This document shows, in pieces, positions 49,606 to 53,430 of a stretch of DNA of 64,000 nucleotides. Within the stretch, counting starts at the first letter, position 1. Each line of letters begins with the position of its first letter. A model generated the notes under the pieces. The model saw only the letters and a program-made list of their open reading frames with translations, did not search any database and had not been told where the DNA came from. The stretch comes from Paenirhodobacter ferrireducens. Lineage in GTDB: Bacteria; Pseudomonadota; Alphaproteobacteria; Rhodobacterales; Rhodobacteraceae. Location: positions 186,001-250,000 of the forward strand of contig NZ_SAVB01000001.1 in assembly GCF_004022265.1 (NCBI RefSeq). Direction: 5' to 3'. A program made the position numbers and the translations under genes.

Positions 49606-50979
49606 ATGGGCGGGGCACAGGACGGGCTGTTTGCGGCGACCGGGCTGACGCAGGTGGCCTCGGTCGCCGATCTCGGCGGCGGGGCGCTGGCGCAGGTGAT
49701 CGCGGCGCATGACCGCTGGGATTGCGACATCACCTTGATCGACATGGGCGCGAATGGCAGCTGGAGCGGGCTGCGCTCGGACTGGGTTGCGCCCTATCTT
49801 GCCGCGCTTGAGGCGGCGGGGGTGGACCCGGGCCGGGTGCGCGTGGTCACGGCCAGCGCCGAGCTGCGCGCCGTCGATCTGCTGCTGAACCTTGCGGGCT
49901 GGGGCGACCGGCACAAGATCAAGCATCTGAACGAGGTGCTCGAGACGGCGCTCCATGCCGACAGCCGGATGGTTCTCGACATCCGCCACGGCACCGGCAG
50001 CTTCCCGTTCCTCAAGGACTTCGGCGAGACCGAGATCGTGGCCGAGCTGTCACCCCGCGACGGCAAGTCGGTGCGGCGGGTGGTGTTCACGCCGAACGCG
50101 CCGGCGCCCGTGGCCGATGACGGCTGGGCCGCGATCGCGCAGGGGCTTGCGGGCCCCGACGGGTTCTATCGCGAGAACGAGGGCCACAGCTTCCTTTATA
50201 TCCCGCGCTCGAAGAAGGTGCTGGTCGTCACCTTCGACAATCTCGACATCGCGATGAACAAGCGCGACGACCGTCGACCCTGGGGCTTTGCCTTCATCGA
50301 GAAGCAGGGCTGGTCGATGCTGGGCGTGATGGCGGGCGGCTGGACCTGGTATCGCACCCCCTGGGTCGCGACCGAGTTCGACCGGCTGGCGGCCGAGGGC
50401 TTCTTCGCGCAGTTCGACCGGGTGGTGTTCTACGGCGCCTCGATGGGCGGCTATGCGGCTTGCGCCTTCTCGGGAGCCTGCCCGGGGGCGGATGTGGTGG
50501 CGATCTCGCCGCAATCGACGGTCGACAAGACCGTTGTGCCCTGGGAAACGCGCTACAAGACGGTCTGGGGCGCGGATTTCAGCGGCAAATACGGCGATGC
50601 GGCACAGGTGAGCGGGGCCGCGCGGCGCATCGCGCTGCTCTACGACCCCTATGAACCGCTCGACGCGCAGCATGCCGCGCGGTTTCAGGGCGCGAATGTG
50701 ATGAAGCTGCGCGCCCCGCTTCTGGGCCACCGGCTCGGCTCCTCGCTCAGCCAGATGGGGATCCTGAGCCCGATCATCCTGGGAGCGCTTGACGGCACCC
50801 TGACCGAGGCCACGTTCTATCGCCGGCTGCGCGCGCGCAAGGATTTCGCGCGCTATCAGCGCGAGTTGTTCGAGCGGGCGGTGGCGAAGGGGCACAAGCG
50901 GCTGGCGCGGCGGCTGGGCGAATGGGTGCTGAAGCGCGGCGACAACCGGGCGATCCGGCAGGGGCTCGCAAAGCTCTAA
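49606..50979 (+). CDS. two-domain protein: Rossmann-like N-terminus plus alpha/beta-hydrolase-like C-terminus
   Basis: A 457-residue protein with no recognised full-length family. Residues 1-165 look Rossmann-like (DITLIDMGANGSWSGLRSDW, SRMVLDIRHGTGSFPFLKDF). Residues about 190-420 match the serine-less protein at 43080-44051, but here the elbow is VVFYGASMGGYAACAFS with Ser279 (GxSxGG), and AISPQSTVDK and LLYDPYEP follow. It could esterify or de-esterify a glycan. Second gene of the plus-strand arm; the FNR-linked RNA region follows. Confidence 0.7.
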   Translation: MGGAQDGLFAATGLTQVASVADLGGGALAQVIAAHDRWDCDITLIDMGANGSWSGLRSDWVAPYLAALEAAGVDPGRVRVVTASAELRAVDLLLNLAGWGDRHKIKHLNEVLETALHADSRMVLDIRHGTGSFPFLKDFGETEIVAELSPRDGKSVRRVVFTPNAPAPVADDGWAAIAQGLAGPDGFYRENEGHSFLYIPRSKKVLVVTFDNLDIAMNKRDDRRPWGFAFIEKQGWSMLGVMAGGWTWYRTPWVATEFDRLAAEGFFAQFDRVVFYGASMGGYAACAFSGACPGADVVAISPQSTVDKTVVPWETRYKTVWGADFSGKYGDAAQVSGAARRIALLYDPYEPLDAQHAARFQGANVMKLRAPLLGHRLGSSLSQMGILSPIILGALDGTLTEATFYRRLRARKDFARYQRELFERAVAKGHKRLARRLGEWVLKRGDNRAIRQGLAKL

Positions 50980-51025
50980 TCCCTGTGTGGGCCGTCAAAA
51001 TGTCGCAGCCCGCGCCCCGGCGATC

Positions 51026-51039
51026 TTGATCTGGATCAA
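51026..51039 (+). promoter_or_regulatory. FNR/FnrL-type binding site
   Basis: TTGAT-CTGG-ATCAA is a perfect match to the FNR-family consensus TTGAT-N4-ATCAA. Its centre is at 51032.5. A -10-like TAGAAC lies at 51062-51067, predicting a start at about 51074, exactly 41.5 bp from the box centre, the class II activator geometry. No gene starts within the next 140 bp on the plus strand. Confidence 0.75.
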
Positions 51040-51073
51040 CGTTGCCCGCCGCACTGCCGCGTAGAACAGGGGC

Positions 51074-51197
51074 ATCAGGTTCCTGATCTCCCTGAAACAC
51101 GGCGCAAGCCGGCGGAACCTGACAGAACCAAGGACGTTCTCCCTCGTCTGGTTCAACAATGCGCTGCGGGCCTCCCTCCCGCAGCGCTTTATTTTTT
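51074..51197 (+). ncRNA. candidate oxygen-regulated small RNA with three CUCCCU loops
   Basis: An RNA of about 124 nt is predicted between the FNR-linked start and an intrinsic terminator. Stem 1: TCAGGTTCC (51075-51083) with GGAACCTGA (51114-51122), enclosing a CGGC-GCAA-GCCG mini-hairpin. Stem 2: GAACCA (51125-51130) and GACG (51133-51136) with CGTC-TGGTTC (51145-51154). Stem 3 is the terminator. CTCCCT occurs at 51088-51093, 51139-51144 and 51172-51177, each time in predicted unpaired sequence. This motif can pair with Shine-Dalgarno sequences. No frame longer than a few codons fits the interval. Confidence 0.62.
51161..51196 (+). terminator. intrinsic terminator of the candidate sRNA (or of the glycan operon)
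   Basis: GCGCTGCGGG and CCCGCAGCGC pair over 10 bp around the loop CCTCCCT, followed by TTTATTTTTT. It is the strongest terminator in the window and sits just before the convergent L,D-transpeptidase stop. Confidence 0.93.
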
Positions 51198-51216
51198 GGC
51201 CGATGCCAAGGGGATG

Positions 51217-51810
51217 TCAGATCAGCTTCACCTGCGTGCCGATCGGGCACAGGCCGTAGAGTTCCTCGATCTGCTCGTTGAACAGCCCGATGCAGCCCGA
51301 CGAGCTCTTGCGCCCGATCTTGCGGGTGTCGTGGGTGCCGTGGATGATGTAGGCGGGCCAGCTCAGATACATCGCATGGGTGCCGAGCGGATTGTCCGGC
51401 CCGGGCGGCATCGCATGCAGCGACGGGTCCGCGGCGATCATCGAGGCGGTGGGCGTCCAGCTCGGCCCGATCTTCTTGCGCACGATCTCGGTATAGCCGG
51501 TCTTCGTCAGCTCGGGGCTTTTCGGCACCGAGGTCGGGTATAGCCGGTAATCGGCGCCATCGACGGCCCAGTAGTGCAGCGCCTTCGACACCGTGTCGGC
51601 GATCAGCGTCACCCGGTCAAGCCGGTCGAAATGGTCGCGCCAGTCGATCTCGCGGAAGGATGAGATATTCGCGCGCATCTGCGGAGCGACGATCGCCGGC
51701 TGATCGGCCATCGGGATATCCTGCGTGCCGGCGCGTGCCAGCGCCGGGGTGAAAAGCGATGCGGCCCCCGCAGCGAGCGCCGCGCGGCGGCTGAGAATAA
51801 TCCGTGCCAT
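51217..51810 (-). CDS. L,D-transpeptidase (YkuD domain), exported
   Basis: A 197-residue protein. The N-terminus ARIILSRRAALAAGAASLF looks like a twin-arginine or Sec signal ending before TQDIPMADQ. The catalytic YkuD motif is HGTHDTRKIGRKSSSGCIGL with the Cys nucleophile and His; AMPPGPDNPLGTHAMYLSW precedes it. It would form 3-3 cross-links or attach proteins to peptidoglycan. ATG 51810 with AGGAAC upstream is preferred over an ATG six codons earlier because the signal peptide starts here. Confidence 0.88.
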   Translation of the reverse strand: MARIILSRRAALAAGAASLFTPALARAGTQDIPMADQPAIVAPQMRANISSFREIDWRDHFDRLDRVTLIADTVSKALHYWAVDGADYRLYPTSVPKSPELTKTGYTEIVRKKIGPSWTPTASMIAADPSLHAMPPGPDNPLGTHAMYLSWPAYIIHGTHDTRKIGRKSSSGCIGLFNEQIEELYGLCPIGTQVKLI

Positions 51811-51921
51811 GTCTGTTCCTGTCCTCATATTCTGATTGCCGAATGGTCCCATTTCGTGCCGGCAGGGGCAAATCACGCCGCCTCACGAAAGGGCGAGTCT
51901 GGCCGCGGGCGGGTCTCAACG

Positions 51922-51976: not shown

Positions 51977-52516
<540 letters not shown>

Positions 52517-52713
52517 GGCTGTGATCCTTCTGCGGCCAAGTCGAATGGCGCGCAAAATAGGACCCACGGCCGCGGCTTTCAACCGGAATCAGCGGTTTTC
52601 CGCCCGATCGGCCCGGTAAGGGGAAAGGAGAGCGCCCTTAAGCCTTTGCCTCGCCGTCGTGGGTGTCCATATAGCAGGCGTCGAATTCGTTTCCGAACCG
52701 AAGGGAGAGAAAC

Positions 52714-53430
52714 ATGAAGAAGGTTCTTGGCCTTGTCGTGGTCGTCGCCGCGATTGCCGCAGGGGCGTGGTATTTTACCCGTTCGCCCGAAGGGCAGAAG
52801 GCTGCGACCGAGGCGGTGAACGACGCCAAGGATGCGGCTCAGGCCGTGACCGGGGCGGTCGAGTCGGGCGCTTCCGACAGCGCCACCGCCGCTCAGGATG
52901 CCGCGCAGACCGCGGCGCAGGCAGCGGCCGAGGCGACGAAGGCCGCCGGCGATGCCGCAACGGCCGCGACCGAGGCTGCGGGTGCTGCGGTCGACGCTGC
53001 GAAGGACGTGGCCACCGATGCCGCCACCCAGGCTGCCGGGGCGGCGTCTGACGCCGCCACCGCCGCCACCGAAGCCGCCAGCGCTGCTGCCGATGCCGCC
53101 AAGAATGCGGCTTCGGACGTGACCGGCGCGGCCGGCGATGCCGCCACCCAGGCGGCGCAGTCGGCCGCGGCGGCCAGCTCGGCTGCCGCGCAGGCGGTAA
53201 GCGATGCGGCAAACGCCGCGACCAATGCCGCCGCGGCCGGTGCCGGTGCCGATGCCTCGGCGCTGACCGTCGAGGGCTTCGATGCCGCCAAGGTCGGCGC
53301 GATGATCGACGCCTCGTCGCTCTCGGCCGAAACCAAGACCACGCTTAAGGCTGCGGTCGAGGCGGCGAAGACGAACCCCGCCCTCGTTGCGGCGACCGTC
53401 GCCCAGGTGAAGGTCGCGCTTGGCCTCTGA
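52714..53430 (+). CDS. alanine-rich repeat protein with N-terminal membrane anchor
   Basis: A 238-residue protein. Residues 1-22 (MKKVLGLVVVVAAIAAGAWYF) are an uncleaved anchor or signal. Residues about 30-170 repeat an 11-residue-like amphipathic pattern built from DAA, EAA and TAA units (e.g. AAQAAAEATKAAGDAATAA), as in LEA/apolipoprotein-type helices. Residues 185-238 (ALTVEGFDAAKVGAMIDAS) form a small helical domain. AAGGGAG precedes the ATG and a terminator follows the stop. Role unknown; a periplasmic spacer or desiccation-type protein is possible. Confidence 0.75.
   Translation: MKKVLGLVVVVAAIAAGAWYFTRSPEGQKAATEAVNDAKDAAQAVTGAVESGASDSATAAQDAAQTAAQAAAEATKAAGDAATAATEAAGAAVDAAKDVATDAATQAAGAASDAATAATEAASAAADAAKNAASDVTGAAGDAATQAAQSAAAASSAAAQAVSDAANAATNAAAAGAGADASALTVEGFDAAKVGAMIDASSLSAETKTTLKAAVEAAKTNPALVAATVAQVKVALGL

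Follow-up and report, generated by a model that had tools for sequence, protein, structure and literature searches.

A conserved candidate FNR-driven small RNA with three CUCCCU loops in Paenirhodobacter ferrireducens and related Rhodobacteraceae

The 64,000-nucleotide stretch of the Paenirhodobacter ferrireducens genome analyzed here (the window) holds a short interval between an upstream gene (49606-50979), for which no Pfam match was found, and a minus-strand gene (51217-51876) whose domain, PF03734, bears out its initial annotation as an L,D-transpeptidase gene; infC lies at 51977-52582. FnrL is a main low-oxygen switch of photosynthetic alphaproteobacteria, and the interval had been read as a small RNA (sRNA) gene driven by FNR from its own class II promoter and closed by its own terminator. 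The locus raises the question of whether such a stand-alone gene exists here, how far it extends among relatives, and what its RNA would do. The identification as an FNR-linked sRNA was supported, but the initial annotation had missed an upstream TGTCGCA element, the CUCCCU motif in all three loops, and how widely the family occurs. Judged from sequence, the locus is probably a stand-alone gene for an FnrL-activated, likely RegA/PrrA-assisted, base-pairing sRNA that would repress translation at low oxygen. Its parts are as follows.

51001..51007, + strand: upstream element TGTCGCA (reverse complement TGCGACA), centered near -70; candidate RegA/PrrA half-site
51026..51039, + strand: FNR/FnrL box TTGATCTGGATCAA at -41.5; TTGAYN4RTCAA in 31/31 homologues
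51062..51067, + strand: -10-like hexamer TAGAAC; a TA-starting element is here in most, not all, of 31 homologues
51074..51197, + strand: predicted sRNA, 124 nt (fold z score of -5.72, covariance model R1, pair counts)
51075..51122, + strand: stem-loop 1; it includes a small inner hairpin, and its CUCCCU lies in an inner loop that is mostly open
51125..51154, + strand: stem-loop 2, loop UUCUCCCU (fold, alignment, pair counts)
51161..51187, + strand: terminator stem-loop 3, loop CCUCCCU; the loop is the same in 17/17 homologues, CUCCCU in 31/31
51188..51197, + strand: terminator T-run TTTATTTTTT (sequence)

The promoter and terminator parts described initially were all recovered. The box, centered at 51032.5, is the sole zero-mismatch FNR site in the window, and the start predicted at 51074 lies 41.5 nt from its center, which is the class II position. 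The predicted fold of 51074-51197 contains the three stem-loops, the last of which comprises 10 pairs (9 G-C), a loop of 7, and then the T-run; only on the plus strand does this T-run follow the stem. The claim that the interval is non-coding also held, as no conserved coding frame was seen across 51040-51200. Three plus-strand ORFs of at least 20 amino acids touch this range (25, 40, and 115 amino acids): the 25-amino-acid ORF stops before the predicted start, the 115-amino-acid ORF begins within the terminator T-run, and the 40-amino-acid ORF begins at an ATG just 5′ of the terminator stem that is absent in 10 of the 17 aligned relatives.

Consensus FNR boxes are scarce in the 4,066,781-base genome: the exact palindrome TTGATN4ATCAA and the variant TTGACN4GTCAA occur at 5 sites each, and the combined pattern TTGAYN4RTCAA occurs at 18 sites, versus 1 for the reversed control pattern. 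Because such sites are so few genome-wide, the placement of one at precisely -41.5 relative to a structured RNA is no casual match. A sigma-70 scan did not list this promoter, as expected for an activator-dependent promoter that lacks a -35 element, and terminator-like sites as a class were no commoner than in shuffled sequence (4 found versus 3.6 expected). These would be weak points if taken alone; the parts are convincing because they are conserved.

The RNA folds at -53.8 kcal/mol, compared to -34.1 ± 3.5 kcal/mol for 200 shuffled sequences, none of which folded as well. Covariation was estimated from a plain MAFFT alignment of the 17 blastn homologues, which was not fitted to structure, and from an alignment of 31 loci fitted to the promoter-free covariance model R1, which matched all 31 loci supplied. 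Of 32 distinct strong homologues, these loci include all but L005, from a second Rhodobacter capsulatus strain, which also carries an FNR box; second record copies were left out as well. In the unfitted alignment, 91.9% of the cells pair, both sides have changed in 11/31 pairs, and covariation scores 0.183 versus 0.110 in shuffles (0/500 as high; best slid control, 0.115), while one of five measures, the number of further pair types, was not above the shuffles (19 versus 19.3; 371/500 as high). In the 31-locus alignment, which leans toward the structure to which it was fitted, the corresponding values are 95.4% of the cells, 17/31 pairs, and 0.305 versus 0.135 (0/500 as high; best slid control, 0.093). 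Two-sided changes are seen in 8/9 outer pairs of stem 1 (30 distinct sequences) and in each of the five lower pairs of stem 2; 8/10 pairs of the terminator never vary. The comparison with related genomes and the covariance analysis proposed at the outset thus yielded homologues whose compensatory changes support the predicted stems.

Loops 1, 2, and 3 retain the motif CUCCCU in 31/31, 30/31, and 31/31 loci, respectively; nine of these loci had come from a loop pattern that itself demands most of CUCCCU and six from the R1 model search. Among the 17 homologues found by blastn, the loops GATCTCCCTGA, TCTCCCT, and CCTCCCT are invariant. In the predicted fold, the first C of the CUCCCU in stem-loop 1 sits in a 2-pair helix. 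As predicted, the RNA has the structure of a trans-acting base-pairing sRNA, being structured and apparently non-coding, with a conserved unpaired seed and a rho-independent terminator.

The promoter is kept together with the RNA. In all 31 homologues, a TTGAYN4RTCAA box starts 48 (2 loci), 49 (23 loci), or 50 (6 loci) nt before the model start, and TGTCGCA starts 25 nt (29 loci) or 24 nt (2 loci) before the FNR box. TGTCGCA was outside every query used to find the homologues; the blastn query contained the FNR box, whereas the R1 model and loop-pattern searches did not. Among 11 distant relatives, TGTCGCA was found at the same place in just one. The reverse complement TGCGACA fits YGCGRCR, which we take to be the RegA/PrrA half-site consensus, and the second regulator would most likely be RegA/PrrA. 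The genome encodes an FnrL with the cysteines CGDC and CARC, 82% identical to what we take to be R. sphaeroides FnrL, and a RegA-type helix-turn-helix with 98% identity to what we take to be the RegA peptide. The near-constant box spacing, the paired changes in the fold, and the FnrL with its cysteine cluster all argue for an sRNA that is driven by FNR from a class II promoter of its own and ends at its own terminator. A box at an activating position and an encoded FNR-type regulator with a cysteine cluster are the sequence hallmarks of an FNR-dependent sRNA, and from them we infer that the RNA is transcribed under FNR control.

The published R. capsulatus FnrL motif, (T/C/A)TGA-N6-TCAA, as given in the available text of PMC4634722, matches every homologue box. 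The R. capsulatus box itself, TTGACCTATGTCAA, is absent from the main text and Table 1 of that report (PMC4634722). Elsewhere in the P. ferrireducens genome, four consensus FNR boxes lie within 6 kb (G000:C58:95127-101022), the first just before fnrL, an arrangement that suggests self-control of fnrL and a low-oxygen gene cluster.

The distribution of the RNA was examined at three depths. In a blastn search of 61 genomes, homologues were found in 15/18 genomes of the genus (its own included) and 2/19 genomes of other genera in the family; the one match in another family spans 23 bases and was taken as chance. The relative L002 is 95% identical over the blastn query, and all 17 aligned homologues keep the FNR box at a nearly equal distance. 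A gapped DNA pattern derived from the loops returned 29 records, which include R. capsulatus (two), R. viridis, R. aestuarii, R. maris, Sinirhodobacter hankyongi, Thioclava (five), Defluviimonas nitratireducens, Phaeovulum, Frigidibacter, Sedimentimonas, and Pseudothioclava. Finally, R1 was searched against 394 family genomes, nearly one per genus, under strict filters (E ≤ 0.01), which gave 30 matches, 10 strong and 20 weak, with approximately 4 expected by chance at this threshold, the E-values being rough.

All 10 strong matches have a consensus FNR box no more than 150 nt upstream, as do 10/20 weak matches (9 within 120 nt and one at 148 nt). The other ten weak matches comprise one whose box is 469 nt away and nine that lack a consensus box in the 120 nt upstream, although a near-consensus site is present in one of the nine. 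Across 19 wider loci (7 strong and 12 weak; 184,033 bases), 17 of the 21 boxes present are within 150 nt upstream of an R1 match, and infC is located within 3.5 kb of the match in 5/7 strong and 5/12 weak loci. Many of the weak matches are therefore not due to chance, given the boxes and infC nearby. The number of hairpins varies: approximately six, five of them with C-rich loops, follow the FNR box in L059, and approximately eight with C-rich loops, in two groups, lie within 542 bases after the box in L053 (box at 2504, reversed locus). It is conceivable, though somewhat more doubtful than not, that these loci belong to a modular class of FNR-driven RNAs across the Rhodobacteraceae, in which a variable number of CUCCCU/CCUCCC hairpins provides a tunable low-oxygen brake on translation, and which R. 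sphaeroides, the relative studied most thoroughly, has seemingly lost or never had. The R1 match has another consensus FNR box at or just past its end in two further loci, L057 (5138) and L058 (5106), as if two boxes flank the gene. A weak relative with an FNR box in another genus (L060) lies approximately 3 kb from a hemA-like gene (5-aminolevulinate synthase; named by eye).

How the RNA would act can be proposed from its parts. Under falling oxygen, FnrL with an intact Fe-S cluster would bind 51026-51039 at -41.5 and activate RNA polymerase, while TGTCGCA near -70 would be bound by another regulator, for which the redox response regulator RegA/PrrA is the most likely candidate. The 124-nt RNA would be made up to its own terminator, and each of its three stem-loops would expose CUCCCU for pairing with the AGGGAG-type ribosome-binding sites of several mRNAs. 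Pairing would block translation and thereby reduce, when oxygen is low, the output of a set of proteins. Lowering the translation of a set of mRNAs under these conditions is the most likely job of the RNA, as far as sequence can indicate. No pufL match was found in the P. ferrireducens genome at 1e-100, nor any first-look candidate, so the role of the RNA cannot be confined to photosynthesis.

The sequence complementary to the loops is in use as a ribosome-binding site. AGGGAGA occurs 4-9 nt before an ATG 66 times in the P. ferrireducens genome, where the reversed control gives 1. Three relatives have 52-72 such sites each, and the controls give 0-2 per strand; being frequent before ATG and rare in controls, it is a real ribosome-binding form. 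The number of such sites is no evidence of targeting, because AGGGAGA is simply a common Shine-Dalgarno form. Target candidates were compared between P. ferrireducens and R. capsulatus using 116 sites, of which 9 without a reading frame of 40 amino acids were dropped, leaving 60/65 and 47/51 genes, respectively. The two sets share 7 BLAST pairs, 6 of them orthologous, with no one clear pathway among them. The six orthologs, named from sequence reading, are rpoH-like, ribosomal protein S8-like, Mur-ligase-like, MFS, ABC-type, and thioesterase-like; all of them, including the rpoH-like sigma factor, are candidates rather than proven targets. Pairing beyond the seed reached a maximum of 13 contiguous pairs among the best 25 and did not single out any one target. 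Within the window, the start site at 52702-52716, AGGGAGAGAAACATG, belongs to the gene of a 238-amino-acid alanine-rich protein without a Pfam match, a possible target close to the sRNA gene.

Two other accounts of the locus concern its independence and its mode of action. The RNA could be no more than the 3′ UTR of the upstream gene, with or without processing, just as SorX of R. sphaeroides, which also has C-rich loops, is released by cleavage of an mRNA according to the portions available of PMC6238624 and PMC3320616. The upstream gene is on the same strand and ends 46 nt before the box, and no terminator was found between them. However, the spacing from promoter to RNA is near-fixed in 31/31 homologues, and box, TGTCGCA, and RNA occur together without a relative of the upstream gene in R. 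capsulatus (L003, L092), R. viridis (L006), and R. aestuarii (L009, L086), where tblastn found no such relative beside the RNA in the stretches examined. Likewise, tblastn found no L,D-transpeptidase relative beside the RNA in the examined Thioclava and Phaeovulum stretches. Since the RNA persists without either neighbor, it is part of neither gene, and we regard a 3′-end origin as improbable. The three like loops, together with the additional hairpins of this kind in distant relatives, have the look of repeated binding sites, and the RNA might serve mainly as a sponge for ribosomes or for a C-rich-binding protein such as a CcaF1-like small protein, rather than by pairing with chosen mRNAs; CcaF1 binds RNAs that include the sRNA PcrZ in R. 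sphaeroides, as stated in the accessible part of PMC10253847. Against this, CUCCCU is complementary to AGGGAG, a ribosome-binding form in actual use in the genome, which makes a sponge unlikely, if slightly less so than a 3′ end.

The RNA might alternatively be orthologous to PcrZ, an R. sphaeroides sRNA linked to FnrL and PrrA, as the same inputs are suspected, PrrA and FnrL ("indirect?") being listed for PcrZ in the available text of PMC8139620. The R. sphaeroides genome used here (G091) was taken as strain 2.4.1; SorX is at its published position. The PufL of G091 is 100% identical to what we take to be R. sphaeroides PufL. R1 found nothing significant in this genome (best E, 0.36), and no FNR box was found in its infC region (15,001 bases). 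It contains 33 consensus FNR boxes, and among the 27 scanned downstream none is followed by repeated CUCCCU and six by one hairpin whose loop is of the CUCC or UUCCC type; the box beside PcrZ was inspected separately as a 28th. In the P. ferrireducens genome, 8/18 boxes were scanned likewise, and C-rich hairpins follow the box of this sRNA only. The published PcrZ position, moreover, has no CUCCCU, a different fold, and no box at -41.5, and ChIP tables seen in PMC4263372 place cytochrome b561 there. With sequence, fold, locus, and the R1 search all at variance, PcrZ orthology was rejected as very nearly inconceivable. A perfect FNR box (L073:5187-5200) does lie 186 nt downstream of the 5′ end reported for PcrZ; it is followed by a reading frame and may explain the CrpK/FnrL peak assigned to cytochrome b561 in the tables of PMC4263372. 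Orthology to SorX (RSs2461) was rejected as well, since the SorX model (RF02784), which does recover SorX at its known R. sphaeroides place, has no match to the window RNA up to E 10 (cutoff, 46.6). FnrL ChIP sites were reported in the putative promoter regions of the R. sphaeroides sRNAs RSs0019 and RSs2461, where an effect of FnrL could not be shown, according to the text available of PMC4263372; both were rejected as the present RNA because they are at other loci.

The base-pairing sRNA proposed here also resembles several known sRNAs without belonging to their families. It passes no Rfam cutoff, and its scores for the nearest families, ar14 (RF02344; 25.3 bits versus a gathering cutoff of 58.8) and ar7 (RF02342; 22.0 bits versus 60), are far below the cutoffs and were not counted as membership. 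Like the ar14, ar7, and cuckoo RNAs, it has several hairpins with C-rich, anti-Shine-Dalgarno-like loops, the terminator included, and because this plan is common to both, it may work like ar14 and ar7, which does not imply membership. We know of no FNR promoter or infC-side locus in the ar14, ar7, and cuckoo RNAs. The enterobacterial FnrS has no Rfam similarity to the window RNA up to E 10, and to our knowledge three like CUCCCU loops are not an FnrS feature. FnrS is a stand-alone sRNA switched on by FNR at low oxygen that represses many mRNAs, as summarized in the available text of PMC8139620, and the same would be expected here. SorX and SorY (RF02651), neither of whose models matches up to E 10, are likewise short and come from a related genus. 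The loops of SorX are C-rich, but it differs in being cut from an ompR-type mRNA, in its RpoHI/HII promoter, and in its induction by singlet oxygen and superoxide, as far as the accessible literature describes it. RsaE/RoxS of the Firmicutes is a redox-controlled sRNA that directs C-rich loops against ribosome-binding sites. Its model matches the window RNA at chance level and on the other strand (14.4 bits versus a cutoff of 79), and it is under the control of ResDE (PMC8139620), not FNR. PcrZ is linked to low oxygen, PrrA, and FnrL (PMC8139620) but differs in locus, sequence, and fold.

In searches of the open-licence literature, no title or opening of an abstract among the papers listed describes this RNA, although it may have been detected earlier by RNA-seq in R. 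capsulatus, and no FnrL-driven sRNA shown for R. capsulatus was found in the same body of work. The tractable model R. capsulatus carries the sRNA gene, so the whole claim is testable there at once. FnrL ChIP in this species gave 34 further peaks without a changed neighbor gene, according to the portion available of PMC4634722, and the sRNA possibly explains one of them. Some of the indirect FnrL regulon could likewise be due to such an sRNA, and the second element at its near-fixed spacing would make the locus a compact case of two redox regulators acting at one sRNA promoter.
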